DNA of 35,797 bases from Methylotenera sp. (GTDB lineage Bacteria; Pseudomonadota; Gammaproteobacteria; Burkholderiales; Methylophilaceae). The notes below the pieces were generated by a model that saw only the letters and a list, made by a program, of their open reading frames with translations, did no database searches and was not told where the DNA came from. The stretch lies in contig JAQTXW010000022.1 of NCBI GenBank assembly GCA_028688575.1, forward strand, positions 1 to 35,797, read 5' to 3'. Position numbers and translations under genes: made by a program. Of this stretch, positions 11,669 to 22,380 are shown in pieces (positions within the stretch are counted from its first letter, which is position 1; every line of letters starts with the position of its first letter).

Positions 11669-12541
11669 TTAGTTCTTTTGGAATTTAAATCCGTAATAGG
11701 TGCCAAATTCACCTTCTGGCTCGTGATAAACAAACAGCATTTCATTGGCGTAGCCTAAACCAGAATAGTAATTATTGGCGCGTAATTTTAGTGTTTTAGG
11801 TAGTTCTGAGCGGCCTATGTATTTGCCTGTGATGTCAAACACGAGAATTGCCTTATGATCAACATCCAGCAATGCGAACTCTTCGCCTTTTACGGCAGTA
11901 TAGGCAACAAAAGCATCACTAATGTCATCAACTTTTGCTCCCGCCTTGTCAAGTTCTAGATTAATTTCCCCGACTTTTTCTCGTGCCTTAGGGTTTACAA
12001 CAAATACTTTGTTACTGCGAGCCTGCTTTGCATAATAGAGGTTATTTTCGGCATCATAAGATGGCATGGTGCTGGCATGCCCGAATGCAGGGTTAAATTG
12101 AGAGATTTCGTCAGAAGTGCTTTTAAGTTCTCCCGAATCAGTTAAGTGGATAGAAAAAATACCAGAGTTAGGCGCAAATCCTAAATCACTGGAAATGTTG
12201 TAAGTGATCGTTTCAAGTTGGTGAGTATTGATGTTGTAATAAATGGAACGGTTATCATAGCCAGGTTGCGATGAGTTAATATAATTGCCCTCGTCATCAT
12301 AGGCGTGTATGAGTGACTTTGAATAAGGCGCCTCTGTTTCGCTGCCTAAAGGAGCCAACCCGCCATCAGCGATGTAGTAGCGCTTTAATCCTGGGATGTG
12401 AGCCACCGTCATTGGCCTTGTGCTTGGTTTTTTAACCAGCGTGATTTTAATGCCTGTTTGTGCTTCTGACAGAAGCTCTGCCTGTGCCATTGGGGCAGAC
12501 GCGATTGAAATTAAGGATAAAAGCAGAAGTGAAGTGCGCAT
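11669..12541 (-). CDS. Exported protein of unknown function, possible beta-propeller
   Basis: I do not recognise this family. The N-terminus (MRTSLLLLSLISIASAPMAQA) is a Sec signal peptide. The mature protein (about 270 aa) is rich in short strand-turn units such as RYYIADGGL, LIHAYDDEGNYI, IFSIHLTDSGEL, NLYYAKQARSNKVFVVNPKA and AILVFDITGKYIGR, which look like blades of a beta-propeller of the NHL or YncE kind. It is monocistronic between queA and the convergent DUF1097 gene. Confidence 0.65.
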   Translation of the reverse strand: MRTSLLLLSLISIASAPMAQAELLSEAQTGIKITLVKKPSTRPMTVAHIPGLKRYYIADGGLAPLGSETEAPYSKSLIHAYDDEGNYINSSQPGYDNRSIYYNINTHQLETITYNISSDLGFAPNSGIFSIHLTDSGELKSTSDEISQFNPAFGHASTMPSYDAENNLYYAKQARSNKVFVVNPKAREKVGEINLELDKAGAKVDDISDAFVAYTAVKGEEFALLDVDHKAILVFDITGKYIGRSELPKTLKLRANNYYSGLGYANEMLFVYHEPEGEFGTYYGFKFQKN

Positions 12542-16005: not shown

Positions 16006-16107
16006 TCTGTTTATCTCAGGCAAGTTTCATTTTTTAATCAGTGTGCCTATATATTTGCAGCAAATGCAACCACAGCATATAGGCAGGCTGCATCTATGTG
16101 GCTTGCA

Positions 16108-17028
16108 TTACCCTAGTGTCGTACTAATTGGTGTTCTAATTACAACAGTTTCGTTGCCATGTGTTTGATGTGTGTGGTCTATAGCGCTATAGATTGTTTT
16201 AAAATACTCAATCGGTTTTGGATGTAGCAAGCTTAAATGGGCTAAGCATTGCTTTCTCCAATGTTCAAGTTGCACTAAATTAAAATTTTTAAGCTCTGGC
16301 TCAAAAAGTGGCTGATGGCCACGCATCACAGCACCTATCTCATAGATTGCAGATTGAGTTTTTGCCACATAATAAACAAAGTGCCTACTGACACGTTGAT
16401 CTAGGCGCTGAGCGAGATGGAAAATAAAGTGTGGCAGTTTGACCAAGCGCAATAGCCCATCGGCCCAGGCCAGGCGCTTAATAGCGGCGTTGGTGATATG
16501 ATCTGGGCATCTGAAATGCTGTGAGATGAACTTGGCTAGTATGAGCTGATGTTGTAAAAGCAGGCGCTTGGGCGTTGTTTCGACCAAAGGTGCAAGGTAG
16601 GCGTCCATAGCCCATTCAGCGGTGACATGGGTAAAGATCGTATTTTTTAGCCACATCGCCTCATGCGCTGGTACAAAATGGTGGTGTGCGATCACATCAA
16701 TATATAAATGACTGGCATAACCAATTGCAATGGCGGTTTCTTCTTCTGTTTGTGCGACTTTTAGAAAGTGATGTGCATTCTCCCACAAGTGCGTGTGGCG
16801 AAAGCGTTGGCTGACAATTGCCAAATCGGGTAAGCAGGCACCCGCCATGACAAGCTCGGGGAATTGTTTAATCGCTTGCTGAAAACGTTTGTCCAGCAGC
16901 GGCATAGCCCATAATAGCGAGTGCGCAAAGTACAGGTGGGTCATTAGCCCCCATGCGTTTGCTTCGATTGAGTATAAGCACAGTGGTAGCCACCAGCACA
17001 GCTTATTGATGCATTTAAGCGTTTGCAT
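16108..17028 (-). CDS. Secreted zinc-dependent phospholipase C (PF00882 type)
   Basis: Predicted to hydrolyse phospholipids to diacylglycerol plus a phospho-head group. Residues 1-25 from this ATG form a signal peptide ending in EANA. The mature protein would then begin WGLMTHLYFAHSLLW, placing Trp first, as in clostridial alpha-toxin and Bacillus PC-PLC, where the N-terminal Trp is a zinc ligand. Further zinc-ligand-like residues are in GACLPDLAIV, RHTHLWENAHHFLKV and GYASHLYIDVIAHHHFVPAHEA. The start is debatable: GTG 17037 has TAAGGA seven bases upstream, but that sequence overlaps a predicted -10 (17047-17052), which favours ATG 17028 with a short leader. It is divergent from a glucosyltransferase-like gene, and both carry Pho-box-like promoters. 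Confidence 0.78.
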   Translation of the reverse strand: MQTLKCINKLCWWLPLCLYSIEANAWGLMTHLYFAHSLLWAMPLLDKRFQQAIKQFPELVMAGACLPDLAIVSQRFRHTHLWENAHHFLKVAQTEEETAIAIGYASHLYIDVIAHHHFVPAHEAMWLKNTIFTHVTAEWAMDAYLAPLVETTPKRLLLQHQLILAKFISQHFRCPDHITNAAIKRLAWADGLLRLVKLPHFIFHLAQRLDQRVSRHFVYYVAKTQSAIYEIGAVMRGHQPLFEPELKNFNLVQLEHWRKQCLAHLSLLHPKPIEYFKTIYSAIDHTHQTHGNETVVIRTPISTTLG

Positions 17029-17046
17029 GCATTGCACTTTGTCATC

Positions 17047-17091
17047 CTTATATGAAAAAAAGATGACATTGAGATGATGAATACGTGACAT
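17047..17091 (-). promoter_or_regulatory. Pho-box-like promoter of the phospholipase gene
   Basis: On the minus strand, 7-mers ATGTCAC, TCATCAT, ATGTCAT and TTTTCAT start at 17091, 17080, 17069 and 17058, exactly 11 bp apart, resembling the CTGTCAT PhoB half-site. Six bases after the ATGTCAT unit (ending 17059) comes TATAAG (17052-17047) as a -10. This is the same layout as at pstS. Confidence 0.6.
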
Positions 17092-17118
17092 TTCATTCTG
17101 TACGCATTGAGTGTGTCA

Positions 17119-17152
17119 TTTTCATGTGTTTGTCATAAATCGTCGTTATATT
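17119..17152 (+). promoter_or_regulatory. Pho-box-like promoter of the glycosyltransferase gene
   Basis: TTTTCAT (17119-17125) and TTGTCAT (17130-17136) lie 11 bp apart on the plus strand, each followed by a 4-bp spacer. After six bases comes TATATT (17147-17152) as a -10 hexamer. The transcript would start near 17159, giving a leader of about 36 nt. Confidence 0.6.
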
Positions 17153-17194
17153 TTGCTAACCTGATGATGAATCAAACTTGAGAGGTGTTGGCTA

Positions 17195-18397
17195 ATGAAA
17201 ATATTATTTATCTCGGATGTTTACTTTCCACGCGTCAATGGGGTTTCCACTTCAATCCGTACATTTGTAGAGCAAATGCAATTGCACGGGCATGAAGTAC
17301 ATTTAATTGCGCCTGATTACGGTGAATTAACGCGAGATGAAGTTTGGATTAAACGTATTCCCGCACGTGAAATCTATTTTGACCCTGAGGATAGGCTCAT
17401 GAAGTACGGTGAAGTTATACGCATGCTTCCCGAACTGCGACAACAGCAATATGAGGTGGTGCATGTACACACGCCGTTTGTAGCGCATTATCTAGGCCTT
17501 AAACTGGCGCGAGCACTTGGTGTGCCATGTGTAGAAACCTATCACACATTTTTTGAGGATTATTTACACCATTATTTGCCTTGGATTCCTCGGCCTGTTG
17601 CACGAGGCGTGGCAAAAATGATATCCAAACGGCAGTGCAATGCTGTAGATGCGGTAGTCGCACCTTCGCAACCCATGCTGGATGTATTGCGTGCCTATGG
17701 TGTGAATGTTGCCGCAGAGGTAATTCCTACAGGGTTGCAGAGCAATAGTTTTAAAGCGGTCGATGGTACGGCGTTTAGAGCTTTGTATGGGATTGCACTT
17801 GATCGTCCTATGCTTTTGTACGTAGGGCGTGTAGCATATGAGAAAAACATCGATTTTTTGTTAAACATGCTTAAAGCGCTCATCGCGCAGCAGCCCGATG
17901 TGTTGTTGGTGATTGCAGGCCAAGGCCCGGCAGAGACGCATTTGCACAAATTGGTGATTCAGTTGGGGATTGAAGATCATGTTAAATTCATTGGTTATCT
18001 AGACCGTAATACTGAACTTAATGCCTGCTACCAAGCGGCAGATGTGTTTGTGTTTTCTTCAAAAAGTGAAACGCAAGGTTTGGTTTTACTCGAAGCCATG
18101 GCGCAGGGAACACCAGTAGTGGCTATCGCAGAGTTAGGCACGGCTTCTATTTTAGTGGAAGGCGAGGGGGCTTTGATTGCGCCTGATGACATTGGTCAGT
18201 TTGCAGACAAAGTGAACAGCTTGCTGATTAATCCTGAAGAAAGATTTGAGTTGGGATTTAAAGCAAAGCGCTATGTGCTGGAAAAGTGGACTGCACAATT
18301 GCAAGCTGAACGTCTGCTTAACTTTTATCGGCAGGTAGTAACTGAAAAAGCTTTGTACGGCGATACGGGGGTCGCATTAGCAAAAATTAATGGTTGA
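17195..18397 (+). CDS. GT4 glycosyltransferase, diacylglycerol glucosyltransferase-like
   Basis: GT-B retaining glycosyltransferase of 400 aa, likely peripheral on the inner membrane. The N-terminal acceptor domain starts MKILFISDVYFPRVNGVSTS, the Gly loop of lipid glycosyltransferases. It contains TYHTFFEDYLHHY (115-127), close to the TYHTxYEDYxHY motif I associate with 1,2-diacylglycerol 3-alpha-glucosyltransferases (alMGS/LafA type). The C-terminal donor domain has GRVAYEKNID (211-220) and an EX7E motif (Glu292-Glu300 in ETQGLVLLE). AGAGG at about 17182 sets the start. With a Pho-box promoter and a divergent phospholipase C, a role in replacing phospholipid by glucolipid during Pi starvation is inferred. 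A PimB-like mannosyltransferase is the main alternative. Confidence 0.8.
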   Translation: MKILFISDVYFPRVNGVSTSIRTFVEQMQLHGHEVHLIAPDYGELTRDEVWIKRIPAREIYFDPEDRLMKYGEVIRMLPELRQQQYEVVHVHTPFVAHYLGLKLARALGVPCVETYHTFFEDYLHHYLPWIPRPVARGVAKMISKRQCNAVDAVVAPSQPMLDVLRAYGVNVAAEVIPTGLQSNSFKAVDGTAFRALYGIALDRPMLLYVGRVAYEKNIDFLLNMLKALIAQQPDVLLVIAGQGPAETHLHKLVIQLGIEDHVKFIGYLDRNTELNACYQAADVFVFSSKSETQGLVLLEAMAQGTPVVAIAELGTASILVEGEGALIAPDDIGQFADKVNSLLINPEERFELGFKAKRYVLEKWTAQLQAERLLNFYRQVVTEKALYGDTGVALAKING

Positions 18398-18496: not shown

Positions 18497-19276
18497 TTAG
18501 CCAAATTTACCTGTAATGTAATCTTCTGTTTCCTTGCGTTCTGGACGGGTGAAGATTTTATCTGTTTCGCCGTGTTCAATCAGCTCCCCAAGGTACATGT
18601 AGGCTGTGTAATCAGATACGCGTGCTGCCTGCTGCATGTTGTGGGTCACCACCAGTATGGTGAGCCTTTCACGTAGCTCACTCATCAGCTCTTCAATATT
18701 CGCCGTAGCAATAGGGTCAAGCGCTGAAGTTGGCTCATCAAACAGCATAATTTCAGGGTCGGTGGCCAGTGCGCGTGCAATACATAAGCGCTGTTGTTGG
18801 CCACCAGATAGATTAAATGCTAAATCCTGCAGGCGATCTTTAACTTCATTCCAGATAGCAGCGCCTTTTAACGCTTCTTCAACTTTTTCGTCAATGACAC
18901 GTTTGTTTTTCTCACCACGTACACGCAAACCATAGGCCACATTTTCATAGATGGATTTTGGAAATGGGTTGGGTTTTTGAAACACCATGCTGATGCGCAT
19001 GCGTACTTCAATCGGGTCTACTTCTTTTTCCAGAATGTTGGTATTGTCTGGATGCATGACAATCTGACCCTCATATTTGTTGCCAGGGTATAAATCATGC
19101 ATGCGGTTAAAGCAGCGCAAGAATGTAGACTTGCCACAGCCAGAGGGGCCAATAAGCGCGGTGATTTTGTTTTCATACAAAGGCATGGAAACATTTTTTA
19201 CCGCATGGTTGCCGCCATTATAAAAAAAGTTAAGGTTGCGCGCTTCAGCTTTGATTGAACTGGTTGCTTTAATCAT
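18497..19276 (-). CDS. pstB: Phosphate ABC transporter ATP-binding protein PstB
   Basis: ATPase of the high-affinity PstSCAB phosphate importer, on the cytosolic face of PstA/PstC. Walker A is GPSGCGKST (43-51), the Q-loop region is [21 protein letters not shown], the ABC signature is LSGGQQQR (156-163), Walker B is IMLFDE (176-181), followed by the H-loop [23 protein letters not shown]. Length (259 aa) is normal. It is last in the pstS-C-A-B order, and no phoU follows; the glycosyltransferase gene lies convergently beyond a terminator. Confidence 0.97.
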
Positions 19277-19322: not shown

Positions 19323-20270
19323 TTACCATTTAATGTTTTTGCGCATTTTGTAGCGCATGCGGATGGCAAACCCGTTCATCACCAGTGTGACCAAGATAAT
19401 AATGACTCCAGCGGCGGCTGCATTTACATGAAATGCCTCACTTGGCCTGGATAGCCAGCTAAACATCTGGATCGGTAACACCGTAAAACCAGAGGATAGC
19501 CATTCAAAGTTTAAAAATGGCGCAGTAGTGGTAATGGGTGATGGGGGTAAAAATGCAATAAAGGTCAGTGCGCCAATGGTGATAATAGGCGCTGTTTCAC
19601 CAATAGCGCGCGCCATGCCGATAATCACACCCGTGAGTATGCCGCCAAATGAATATTTAATCACATGGTCATACACCACCTGCCATTTGGTGGCGCCTAC
19701 TGCATAGGCGGCCTCTCTAATCGCAACAGGGATGCTGCGTATAGATTCACGGGTTGCCACAATCACCACAGGCATAATGAGTAGGCCCAAGGTGAGGCCA
19801 GCGGTTAAAATACTTTGGCCAAAATCCAGCATATACACAAATAAACCCAGCGCCAGTAAGCCGTAAATAATGGAGGGTACGGCGGCCAAGTTGGACACGT
19901 TGATTTCAATCAGGTCGGACAGCCAGTTTTTGGGTGCGTATTCTTCAAGGTAAATCGCTGCCATAACGCCGATAGGCACGGCAGACACAAAGGTCACCAG
20001 CATCACCAGTGTTGAGCCGACTAGTGCTGATAGCAAGCCAGCACTGGAAGCACGGCGTGACGGGAAGTCTGTGTAAAAACTGGCTGAAAATAACTTAGGA
20101 TAGCCTTGTTGAATCAAATCGATAAACAAGGTGAGCAGGGTAAGCAAACCTACCATCAGGCAAAGTAGACCAATAACCGAAAAAATATAATCATTGAACT
20201 TGTGGCGCTTAATCATCGCGCGCACTTCATCAAGATTTTTGATGGGCTTGGTGGGTGAGTGTTGTTGCAT
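19323..20270 (-). CDS. pstA: Phosphate ABC transporter permease PstA
   Basis: Inner-membrane permease of the Pst importer with six hydrophobic segments. The cytosolic coupling (EAA-like) loop is REAAYAVGATKWQVVYDHVIKYSFGGILTGVIIGMARAIGETAPI, and the membrane segment YLEEYAPKNWLSDLIEINVSNLAAVPSIIYGLLALG is typical of PstA. Its N-terminal cytosolic stretch of about 30 residues is normal. The start lies 2 bases after the pstC stop, so the two are translationally linked. Confidence 0.95.
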   Translation of the reverse strand: MQQHSPTKPIKNLDEVRAMIKRHKFNDYIFSVIGLLCLMVGLLTLLTLFIDLIQQGYPKLFSASFYTDFPSRRASSAGLLSALVGSTLVMLVTFVSAVPIGVMAAIYLEEYAPKNWLSDLIEINVSNLAAVPSIIYGLLALGLFVYMLDFGQSILTAGLTLGLLIMPVVIVATRESIRSIPVAIREAAYAVGATKWQVVYDHVIKYSFGGILTGVIIGMARAIGETAPIITIGALTFIAFLPPSPITTTAPFLNFEWLSSGFTVLPIQMFSWLSRPSEAFHVNAAAAGVIIILVTLVMNGFAIRMRYKMRKNIKW

Positions 20271-20272
20271 GA

Positions 20273-21220
20273 TTAATATCTCTCGCTATATTTCTTACGG
20301 GTGATGTGCCCAATAATATTGAGTGTCAGTGTCATTAGCATCAGTACCAGACCTGCGGCAAAAATGCTTTGGTAGCCAATGCTGCCGTGCGGCAGGTCAC
20401 CCATGGCCACTTGTACAATGTAGGCAGTGATGGTGGCTGCGGCATCCATGGGGTTAAAGCTCAGGTTTGGCTGTTGGCCAGCCGCAATGGCTACCACCAT
20501 GGTTTCACCAATTGCACGAGAAATACCAAGAATGTAAGCGGCAACAATGCCTGAAACAGCCGCTGGGGTGACGACTTTTAGTGCGGTTTGAAAGCGTGTC
20601 GCTCCCATGGCGTAAGAGCCCTCACGCATGCTCATGGGTACGGCGCGCATGGCATCTTCAGAAAGGGATGCAATGTAGGGAATAATCATGATACCAATCA
20701 CAATGCCTGAACTTAGCATGTTAAAGGTCGGCAACCCTGGGATAATGCTTTGCAAAATCGGCGTGACAAACAGCAGGGCAAAAAACCCAAACACAATAGT
20801 TGGAACACCCGCGAGCAGTTCTAAAACAGGCTTCACCGTTTCACGTGTTTTATGGCTGGCAAATTCAGAAAGATAAATGGCACTGACAGTGCCGATTGGG
20901 ATGGCAATTAACAATGCAACACCCGTTACAGTCAAAGTACCAGATACTAGCGGCAAAATGCCGTAGTGCGGATTTTCAAATAAGGGCGTCCAAACTGTAT
21001 CCGTTAAAAAGTCAACAATGGATACATGTTCAAAAAACGTATAGGACTCATAAAGTAAAATGCCGATAATGGCGGCTGTGGTCAGGACAGCAGATAACGC
21101 GGCCAGCAACAAAATAAGCTCAATCACCCGCTCTTTAAAATGGCGCGTGAAATTTTTGGATAATCGGTCACTTATTTCTAGGTTGATTGGGTTATTTAAC
21201 ACTTGATTTACCGTATTCAT
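20273..21220 (-). CDS. pstC: Phosphate ABC transporter permease PstC
   Basis: Second membrane subunit of PstSCAB. Six hydrophobic segments, IYLSEFASHKTRETVKPVLELLAGVPTIVFGFFAL, and the coupling loop REGSYAMGATRFQTALKVVTPAAVSGIVAAYILGISRAIGETMVV are characteristic. The N-terminal 35 residues are cytosolic and charged. It lies 84 bases downstream of pstS; the intervening spacer holds no obvious hairpin, so the four pst genes are probably one transcript. Confidence 0.95.
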   Translation of the reverse strand: MNTVNQVLNNPINLEISDRLSKNFTRHFKERVIELILLLAALSAVLTTAAIIGILLYESYTFFEHVSIVDFLTDTVWTPLFENPHYGILPLVSGTLTVTGVALLIAIPIGTVSAIYLSEFASHKTRETVKPVLELLAGVPTIVFGFFALLFVTPILQSIIPGLPTFNMLSSGIVIGIMIIPYIASLSEDAMRAVPMSMREGSYAMGATRFQTALKVVTPAAVSGIVAAYILGISRAIGETMVVAIAAGQQPNLSFNPMDAAATITAYIVQVAMGDLPHGSIGYQSIFAAGLVLMLMTLTLNIIGHITRKKYSERY

Positions 21221-21304: not shown

Positions 21305-22303
21305 TTATTTAATACGTGCTAATAACTCTTCAATTTTAACCCCAACTTCGGCTTTGCCGCCAAACCCTGTACCAGGTTTTAGTTCTTTCCAATGTTTGAT
21401 CACAGCTTTTTGCTCATTGGCAGGCAGAGCTACATATTTAACTTCTTCAATCAACGGTTTGCTTTGCTCTAAATAATAATTAACATAGGCCTTAACTTCT
21501 GGTTTGAATGCAGCAGCTGTTGCATTAACATAAATAAATAATGGGCGTGCTAACGGCTGATATGTGCCATCCTGAATGGTTTCTGCTGAAGGCAAGACTG
21601 CTGGCTTTCCTGATTTTTGAGTGATGGCAACAGCGGTTAATTTGTCCTGATTTTCTTCATAATAAGCATAGCCGAAATAACCTAATCCACCGATATCCCC
21701 TACAACGCCTTTCACCAGCACATTGTCATCCTCAGAGGCGGTAAAGTCGCCACGGCTTGATTTTGCTTTACCAACAATCGCTTCTGTAAAGTAGTCAAAT
21801 GTGCCTGAATCTGCGCCTGGGCCAAATAATTTAACAGGTGTATTAGGCCATGCAGGGTTGACCTGATTCCAGGTTTTTACCTTACCTTGTGCTGCTGGCT
21901 CCCATAGTTTTTTAAGCTCGGCCGCAGTCATTTTTTTAGCAAACTCATTTTTAGGATTAATCACAACTGTGATTGCATCGTAGGCGATAGGCAACTCAAT
22001 GAATTGCACACCAGCTTCTTTACATGCGTCGATTTCTTTTTGCAGAATCGGACGTGACGCATTTTGCACATCGGTTTCACCACGGCAGAATTTTTTAAAA
22101 CCGCCGCCAGTGCCAGAAATACCTACAGTCACTTTGGTTTTGGTTGCTTTTTGAAACTCTTCTGCAACGGCTTCTGTGATCGGGTAAACCGTACTTGAGC
22201 CGTCAATTTTGATAATTTTTTCTGCGGCTAGCACGGTGTTGGTTGAAAATGTTGCGGCGATTAAAGTGCTGATACTTAAAGATTTAGCCAGTACGGTCTT
22301 CAT
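21305..22303 (-). CDS. pstS: Phosphate-binding periplasmic protein PstS
   Basis: Periplasmic receptor of the high-affinity phosphate importer. From this ATG the signal peptide is MKTVLAKSLSISTLIAATFS plus TNTVLA, and the mature protein starts AEKIIKIDGSSTVYPITEAVAE. The phosphate-binding motifs are IDGSSTVYP, GISGTGGGFKKFCRGE (containing the SGTGGG loop) and FGPGADSGTFDYFTEA. GGAG at 22310-22313 lies six bases before ATG 22303, so that start is preferred over in-frame ATGs at 22306 and 22315. A Pho-box promoter lies 44-77 bases upstream. Confidence 0.96.
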   Translation of the reverse strand: MKTVLAKSLSISTLIAATFSTNTVLAAEKIIKIDGSSTVYPITEAVAEEFQKATKTKVTVGISGTGGGFKKFCRGETDVQNASRPILQKEIDACKEAGVQFIELPIAYDAITVVINPKNEFAKKMTAAELKKLWEPAAQGKVKTWNQVNPAWPNTPVKLFGPGADSGTFDYFTEAIVGKAKSSRGDFTASEDDNVLVKGVVGDIGGLGYFGYAYYEENQDKLTAVAITQKSGKPAVLPSAETIQDGTYQPLARPLFIYVNATAAAFKPEVKAYVNYYLEQSKPLIEEVKYVALPANEQKAVIKHWKELKPGTGFGGKAEVGVKIEELLARIK

Positions 22304-22346
22304 CATGATCTCCATTTGAGTTAGGTTTAGTTTTTAACTGGTATGA

Positions 22347-22380
22347 ATTTTAGTGATGAAATATGACAGTTTGATGACAA
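22347..22380 (-). promoter_or_regulatory. Pho box and -10 of pstS
   Basis: On the minus strand, TTGTCAT (22380-22374) and CTGTCAT (22369-22363) are 11 bp apart with 4-bp AT-rich spacers, almost exactly the PhoB consensus. Six bases later comes TAAAAT (22352-22347) as -10, the usual arrangement where PhoB replaces the -35. The leader would be about 37 nt. Confidence 0.88.

Follow-up and report, generated by a model that had tools for sequence, protein, structure and literature searches.

Lipid remodeling under phosphate starvation through PlcP and the glycosyltransferase Agt has been reported from Phaeobacter, SAR11, Pseudomonas aeruginosa and Methylosinus (PMC4796936; PMC8528852; PMC9239053), and genomic, metagenomic and metatranscriptomic searches for phosphate-saving lipid remodeling have used plcP as a marker (PMC9239053; PMC4796936). 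A further report has Pho-controlled olsB, a gene of ornithine-lipid synthesis, as its subject (PMC11828411). Here a comparable arrangement is described from a window of 35,797 nucleotides, a single contig (JAQTXW010000022.1) of the 2.25 Mb, 98% complete genome of a Methylotenera sp. (GCA_028688575.1), in which a gene for a zinc-dependent phospholipase C (PLC) of family PF00882 and a gene for a glycosyltransferase (GT) of family 4 (GT4) stand back to back, with pstBACS beyond the GT. We propose, with a probability of roughly 0.74, that this pair forms the core of a phosphate-starvation membrane-remodeling module in which an exported zinc PLC does the work of PlcP. The resemblance to PlcP-Agt remodeling lies in the coupling of a gene for a phospholipase that forms diacylglycerol (DAG) to a GT4 gene, in a Pho box, in ornithine-lipid genes elsewhere in the genome, and in a GT lineage whose partner is PlcP in other Methylophilaceae, as it is for a 51% homolog in Candidatus Thiodictyon. 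In contrast, the phospholipase here is a PF00882 zinc enzyme with a predicted export signal, whereas PlcP is calcineurin-like, and DgkA and PAP2 are frequent neighbors of the pair in its relatives. Because no PlcP was found in the genome, the module is not regarded as a PlcP system, though it would work alike.

Results

The PLC gene (16108..17028, minus strand) encodes 306 residues and the GT gene (17195..18397, plus strand) 400, both open reading frames (ORFs) of the divergent pair named in an initial annotation of this DNA being present on opposite strands. A survey for PF00882 beside GT4, which that annotation had suggested, was run over 187 Methylophilaceae genomes (GT at E <= 1e-60, PlcP at E <= 1e-20) and recovered the PLC in 117, the GT in 145 and PlcP in 24; PLC and GT occur together without PlcP in 113 genomes, PlcP and GT without the PLC in 23, all three in one and none in 39. 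PLC and GT share a contig in 113 of the 114 genomes having both, and are divergent with a gap below 400 bp in 79, with gaps of 400-1000 bp in 19 and of 1000-2500 bp in 11, the remaining cases comprising one gap of 6.7 kb, one of 10.7 kb and two pairs lying far apart. Where gapped loci were inspected, the gap holds dgkA, reading in the same direction as the GT (recognized by Pfam in two loci, PF01219 at 123 and 121 bits, and by similarity in the others). Three genomes of the window's genus with the GT and neither PLC nor PlcP (G117, G136 and G146) have PAP2 directly upstream of the GT.

PlcP and the PLC are distributed almost without overlap. All 24 PlcP genomes of the family also hold the GT, and only one of them (G141) also holds the PLC. 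PlcP and the GT are mostly neighbors: they overlap or adjoin in G046 and G049, flank dgkA in G035, G036 and G037, diverge across 1.4 kb in genus g16 and are separated by 2.5-5 kb in g2, while G033, G034 and G141 have them on separate contigs; genus g5 is mixed, with PlcP in G036 and G037 and PLC in G038. The PlcP-like phosphoesterase gene of G141 (L185:5518-6285, plus strand) is the only PlcP hit for the window's genus in the 187 genomes, and it is one of eight scanned short ORFs, four of which match phage families of unknown function and of which PlcP itself has no phage-family match. Lake-sediment plcP transcripts have been assigned to Methylotenera, at 3% of PlcP homologs (PMC9239053). In the window's own genome plcP gave no match at E <= 1e-20, and the single profile hit (35.7 bits) was read as LpxH; the check for a plcP elsewhere in the genome, which the initial annotation had proposed, hence returned none. 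In small Methylophilaceae genomes (L187, L184 and L183; g16 and g2), PlcP and OlsB are adjacent and lie near PAP2-GT.

In the wider order, which we take to be Burkholderiales in GTDB, the 399 genomes surveyed include 57 with the PLC, 196 with PlcP and none with both, against 28 expected (hypergeometric 2e-19, not phylogeny-corrected); eight families contain PLC genomes and PlcP genomes. Among the matches listed, at least 51 of the 196 PlcP matches reach >= 60% identity to the query, and those of lower identity stand at 47-56% outside the family and at 35-48% for the family's weaker ones; the three inspected among those at 47-56% (L254, L259 and L260) each adjoin a GT4 gene. A sign test over the eight mixed families (p 0.008) was set aside because the families had been chosen for holding both kinds. 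Within genus g96, PLC and PlcP alternate at one position of a shared island, which reads GT-PLC-PAP2-GT4b-dgkA in L237 and GT-PlcP-GT4b-dgkA in L262, GT4b being a second GT4 lineage described below. The GTs of these two loci are sisters in a quickly built 60-row tree of the GT, from which half of the family PLC rows were dropped, and at least six changes of partner between PLC and PlcP fall on this tree. Near-complete exclusion and the same-slot replacement thus lend the support of comparative genomics to the earlier impression that a PF00882 enzyme takes the place of PlcP.

The PLC passes the Pfam gathering score of PF00882 (70.6 bits against 26.8), its sole Pfam match at E 0.1. Its start is probably at 17028 rather than at the first ATG at 17091, which gave the longer ORF of the initial annotation, because the signal peptide then falls at the N-terminus. 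This predicted Sec signal peptide (residues 1-25; 16954..17028, minus strand) would be cleaved between A25 and W26, within EANA/WGLMTH. Conservation was tallied over 124 loci (76 named loci of the family, three of Gallionellaceae, and 25 plus 20 order-level loci), which are not independent genomes, as the two order-level groups overlap and many named loci duplicate surveyed genomes. A25, W26 and G27 are invariant in the 123 loci holding the stretch, one N-terminus of the 124 being missing, and position 23 is mostly Ala. The mature N-terminus starting with Trp that had been proposed therefore agrees with the conservation of W26 after A25, the cleavage being a prediction from sequence. For PC-PLC the zinc ligands Trp1, Asp55, His69, His118, Asp122, His128, His142 and Glu146 are given (PMC10420013). 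By pattern and spacing, all nine expected ligands are present in the window's PLC, namely W26, H31, D68, H80, H107, D111, H115/H117, H134 and E138. The ninth counterpart, His14, is a further zinc ligand of PC-PLC. H31, D68, H80, H107, D111, H115, H134 and E138 are invariant in the tallied loci holding the position (123 or 124 of 124), while H117, which varies in one locus, fits PC-PLC His128 better than H115 does by its D-x5-H spacing. The mature protein is modeled as all-helical (pLDDT 92.6). A plasmid search for the PLC gave zero matches. A second PF00882 match in the genome (G000:C1:2267-2584; 19.8 bits, below the cut-off) sits in an ORF of 331 residues with no obvious signal peptide (L002:1288-2283, plus strand) on a 3.2-kb contig.

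The GT matches PF00534 (145 bits) and PF13439 (115 bits), the domains of GT4, and is a probable DAG glycosyltransferase. It carries the stretch ETYHTFFEDYLHHY, close to the TYHTxxEDYxHY that the initial annotation had quoted as the motif of DAG glucosyltransferases, as well as GRVAYEKN, which agrees with the donor motif GRVAxEKN given for the SAR11 enzyme (PMC8231724). The best of its 52 NCBIfam matches is NF049988, alpha-monoglucosyl-DAG synthase, which scores 136 bits where 400 are required, and the next is GlcN-phosphatidylglycerol (GlcN-PG) synthase, at 126 bits against 480. The grouping with lipid enzymes expected at the outset is accordingly favored by this best match and, in agreement with it, by the PlcP-paired orthologs and the gammaproteobacterial homolog at 51%, the profile match itself remaining below its cut-off. 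The substrate class is read from partners and profiles, because the GT tree holds no experimentally characterized Agt or Mgs; the donor would be a UDP-sugar, probably UDP-glucose, and the acceptor DAG. In Candidatus Thiodictyon syntrophicum, the 51% GT homolog is divergent from a 53% PlcP homolog. The latter (L268:3991-4803, minus strand, on plasmid pTs417) is annotated as UDP-2,3-diacylglucosamine diphosphatase, which is probably a misannotation.

The promoter of the GT contains a Pho box, TTTTCATGTGTTTGTCAT (17119..17136, plus strand), followed after 10 bp by the -10 element TATATT (17147..17152, plus strand), the latter read from the sequence; by inspection, T/A-rich -10-like hexamers often lie about 10 bp past the GT Pho box in PLC-GT loci. 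Toward the PLC there is a weak Pho-box-like match, ATGTCATCTTTTTTTCAT (17052..17069, minus strand; 11/14). Taken by itself, the window does not favor the GT-facing site (shuffle p 0.022 with the consensus, 0.051 with the matrix) over the PLC-facing one (0.016 and 0.010). With a matrix built from 30 pstS upstream sites, the GT strand of 48 PLC-GT intergenic regions scores 11.7 on average against -2.1 when shuffled (z 22.8; 0 of 200 shuffles). The GT retains its Pho box in loci of the dgkA type (23 loci, z 10.0) and has a weaker one in PlcP or PLC-less loci of the family (19 loci, z 5.5). Pho boxes also precede PAP2 (60 loci, z 18.6), GT4b (18 loci, z 11.3), PlcP (22 loci, z 9.2) and OlsB (15 loci, z 12.1) in relatives. 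In the three Gallionellaceae loci the Pho box faces pstS (z 8.3), the PLC strand giving z 1.1.

Of the 50 PLC genomes found in the order outside the family, 20 were picked to cover families, and neighbors were counted by tblastn (E <= 1e-6) within 8.5 kb of the PLC. GT4b lies near 15 of the 20 PLC genes, PAP2 near 15, dgkA near 11, an OlsA-like acyltransferase near nine, OlsB near seven, the orthologous GT near four and pstS near two; a second GT4 or pst genes are found near the PLC in 16 of the 20. GT4b (L174:11382-12605, minus strand, and L228-L247) is about 25% identical to the window's GT and often accompanied by PAP2 and dgkA; among NCBIfam models it fits GlcN-PG synthase best, though under the cut-off. 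In Gallionella and Sideroxydans (three loci) a pstS-type gene lies divergent to the PLC, with PAP2 and GT4b close by, the PstS of L174 standing above its equivalog cut-off at 422 bits, and the two longer loci also hold dgkA, OlsB-type and OlsA-type genes. At class level the PLC occurs in two of 274 genomes, one being the window's own; in the other (G743), the lipid genes searched for were not found within 16 kb. A secreted-looking protein of about 240 residues recurs in the lipid islands (L063:2970-3689, minus strand; L065:3520-4245, minus strand; L187:6430-7131, plus strand), also beside PlcP-OlsB. The L063 copy is without a Pfam match, and the protein may reside in the outer membrane and be linked to phosphate starvation.

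Elsewhere in the window's own genome, candidates for OlsB (L253:3873-4643, plus strand) and OlsA lie together on contig C15, at 183 bits against 320 and at 143 against 300, both below the cut-offs of their NCBIfam equivalogs. The start of the OlsB candidate is preceded at 37 bp by a strong Pho box, TCGTCATTAAACTGTCAT, which ranks first among the 15 OlsB sites, so that ornithine lipids may serve here as a second phosphorus-free lipid. In the closest relative, L098, PAP2 is convergent with the PLC and overlaps its 3' end. In the window, a remnant of a PAP2 3' end lies antisense to the PLC 3' end (16100..16150, plus strand; tblastn 14 residues at 79%, E 0.23; reading frame GLHYPSVVLIGVLITT), and an intact PAP2, 81% identical to that of L098, is present at G000:C36:17971-18498; a convergent overlap like that of L098 was probably broken by rearrangement in this genome.

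The pst genes reported beside the pair are also in place, all on the minus strand: pstB (18497..19276; TIGR00972 at 387 bits, above the equivalog cut-off of 343), pstA (19323..20270), pstC (20273..21220) and pstS (21305..22315; TIGR02136 at 309 bits, above the PstS subfamily cut-off of 207), pstA and pstC being named by position and sequence reading, with homologs at the same place in relatives. The Pho box upstream of pstS, TTGTCATCAAACTGTCAT (22363..22380, minus strand), matches at 13/14 and, being among the 30 sites that built the matrix, is not independent of it. At 11669-12541 (minus strand) the window encodes an exported-looking protein of 290 residues with no Pfam match at E 0.1.

Discussion

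Taken as a whole, the comparative evidence makes a strong case for a module that could operate as follows. Upon a fall in inorganic phosphate, active PhoB would bind the Pho box between the two genes and induce the GT and, perhaps through the same intergenic region, the PLC as well. The PLC would be exported by Sec and cleaved at A25/W26, the new N-terminal Trp completing a three-zinc site, and in the periplasm it would cut the cell's own phospholipids to DAG and a phospho-alcohol, from which phosphatases may release phosphate for uptake through the neighboring PstSCAB. For glycosylation by the GT4 enzyme with a UDP-sugar, probably UDP-glucose, the DAG would have to reach the cytoplasmic face, and the product would be a phosphorus-free lipid. 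DgkA, which converts DAG to phosphatidic acid, and PAP2, which converts phosphatidic acid to DAG, are neighbors of the pair in many relatives and may balance the DAG pool. The PLC is thus best read as a non-homologous, exported stand-in for PlcP. Somewhat less firmly, it appears probable that many betaproteobacterial lineages remodel without PlcP, that a Sec-exported three-zinc PF00882 PLC has been swapped in repeatedly, at least once in the same slot, and that breakdown has thereby moved to the periplasmic face, with DgkA and PAP2 acting as a DAG-balancing cycle.

Each protein also differs from its described counterparts. The PLC shares with the Bacillus cereus PC-PLC type its Pfam family, the nine expected zinc ligands and the predicted processed N-terminal Trp, but belongs to a compact subfamily with W-x4-H spacing and sits in lipid islands of Gram-negative bacteria. 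Like the Acholeplasma-type Mgs and the Agrobacterium and SAR11 Agt, the GT has GT4 domains, GRVAxEKN and alpha-monoglucosyl-DAG synthase as its best NCBIfam match; unlike the SAR11 GTcp, for which FPSxTDTFG is given (PMC8231724), it has FSSKSETQG, and it lies well below the equivalog cut-off. With ornithine-lipid synthesis by OlsBA the genome shares the OlsB- and OlsA-type genes on C15 and the strong Pho box of OlsB, and such genes stand in the PLC islands of other families; in the window, however, they are not beside the pair.

A number of observations weigh against the proposed module. The initial annotation had placed PhoB-like repeats in both promoters, and while this holds for the GT, a Pho box for the PLC itself is not supported as a general feature: the PLC strand of the 48 PLC-GT regions gives a matrix z of 1.5 (10 of 200 shuffles; consensus z 2.5), and the regions upstream of the 20 order-level PLC genes give z -1.1. 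In 21 PLC/dgkA regions the PLC strand reaches z 4.3, yet 14 of the 21 sites score below zero and seven above, five of these seven being near-identical, so that the PLC may have a Pho box of its own in some genera. The coupling is incomplete, as eight of the 187 family genomes have the GT with neither PLC nor PlcP, three have the PLC with no GT at the threshold, and a GT4 within reach is missing in five of the 20 order-level loci (L229, beside pstSCAB; L243, on a 3.9-kb contig; L247, with nothing; and L233 and L234, with only acyltransferase matches of 22-24%, the two weak ones among the nine). The PLC/PlcP exclusion is consistent, but not significant under full control for the tree, an independent-pairs test on the starred branches giving five pairs with PlcP opposite in 4.3 on average (p 0.06-0.125), and some of the other 145 of the 196 order-level PlcP matches may not be PlcP. 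The GT is far under every NCBIfam cut-off among the matches listed. With the mature PLC model as query, Foldseek retrieved nothing from the PDB at E <= 0.001; the best rows have TM about 0.1-0.2, and no known PLC stands among the 50 of 160 matches listed. The precursor model (pLDDT 79.6) likewise had no PLC among the matches listed, and PDB searches by sequence and profile turned up no PLC either.

Of the other explanations, the one that survives best, though improbable, is that the PLC is a secreted scavenger of phosphate from foreign or dead-cell phospholipids, with the GT coincidental or merely co-regulated, an option that the initial annotation had kept in view. Secretion is known for PF00882 enzymes such as PC-PLC, and the signal-peptide-like N-terminus and the position beside the pst genes would suit such a role. 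However, scavenging gives no reason to exclude a cytoplasmic PlcP (both in 0 of 399 genomes), and is disfavored because of this; it also leaves unexplained the PLC in PlcP's slot between GT and GT4b-dgkA and the linkage to dgkA and PAP2 across families, and a Pho box of its own is not a general feature of the PLC gene. Slightly less probable still is that the island serves some other envelope function involving DAG, such as the recycling of lipid waste by DgkA, with phosphate limitation secondary and the exclusion of PlcP mostly a matter of ancestry. This would accord with dgkA (11/20) and PAP2 (15/20) being commoner beside the PLC outside the family than the orthologous GT (4/20), with order-level PLC promoters lacking Pho boxes (z -1.1), and with an exclusion test that falls short of 0.05 once phylogeny is controlled. 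It fits poorly with the Pho boxes of the GT (z 22.8, 10.0 and 5.5), GT4b (11.3), PAP2 (18.6), PlcP (9.2) and OlsB (12.1), with OlsB/OlsA and pstS among the neighbors, and with at least six PLC/PlcP changes on the GT tree together with the replacement within one genus. P1/S1 nucleases are related to PF00882, and in P1 nuclease the last ligand is Asp and the W-x4-H spacing resembles that of the window's PLC, which departs here from PC-PLC. That the protein acts on another phosphodiester, as these nucleases do, and is a phospholipase in name only, as the lack of a PLC among the Foldseek matches listed might suggest, is very improbable given PF00882 as its sole Pfam match at E 0.1, a last ligand that is Glu, as is PC-PLC Glu146 (PMC10420013), and neighbors that are DAG enzymes.

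What would be new in the proposed remodeling module is the exported PF00882 PLC in place of PlcP. Titles and the beginnings of abstracts contained no link between PF00882 and phosphate-starvation remodeling, a limited negative, as subscription journals lie mostly outside the scope of that search. If the module operates as proposed, surveys that rely on plcP alone would overlook lipid remodeling in Gallionella and Sideroxydans, in some members of at least 15 further families of the order and, among the 187 Methylophilaceae genomes, in 116; the first step of remodeling could then take place outside the cytoplasm.

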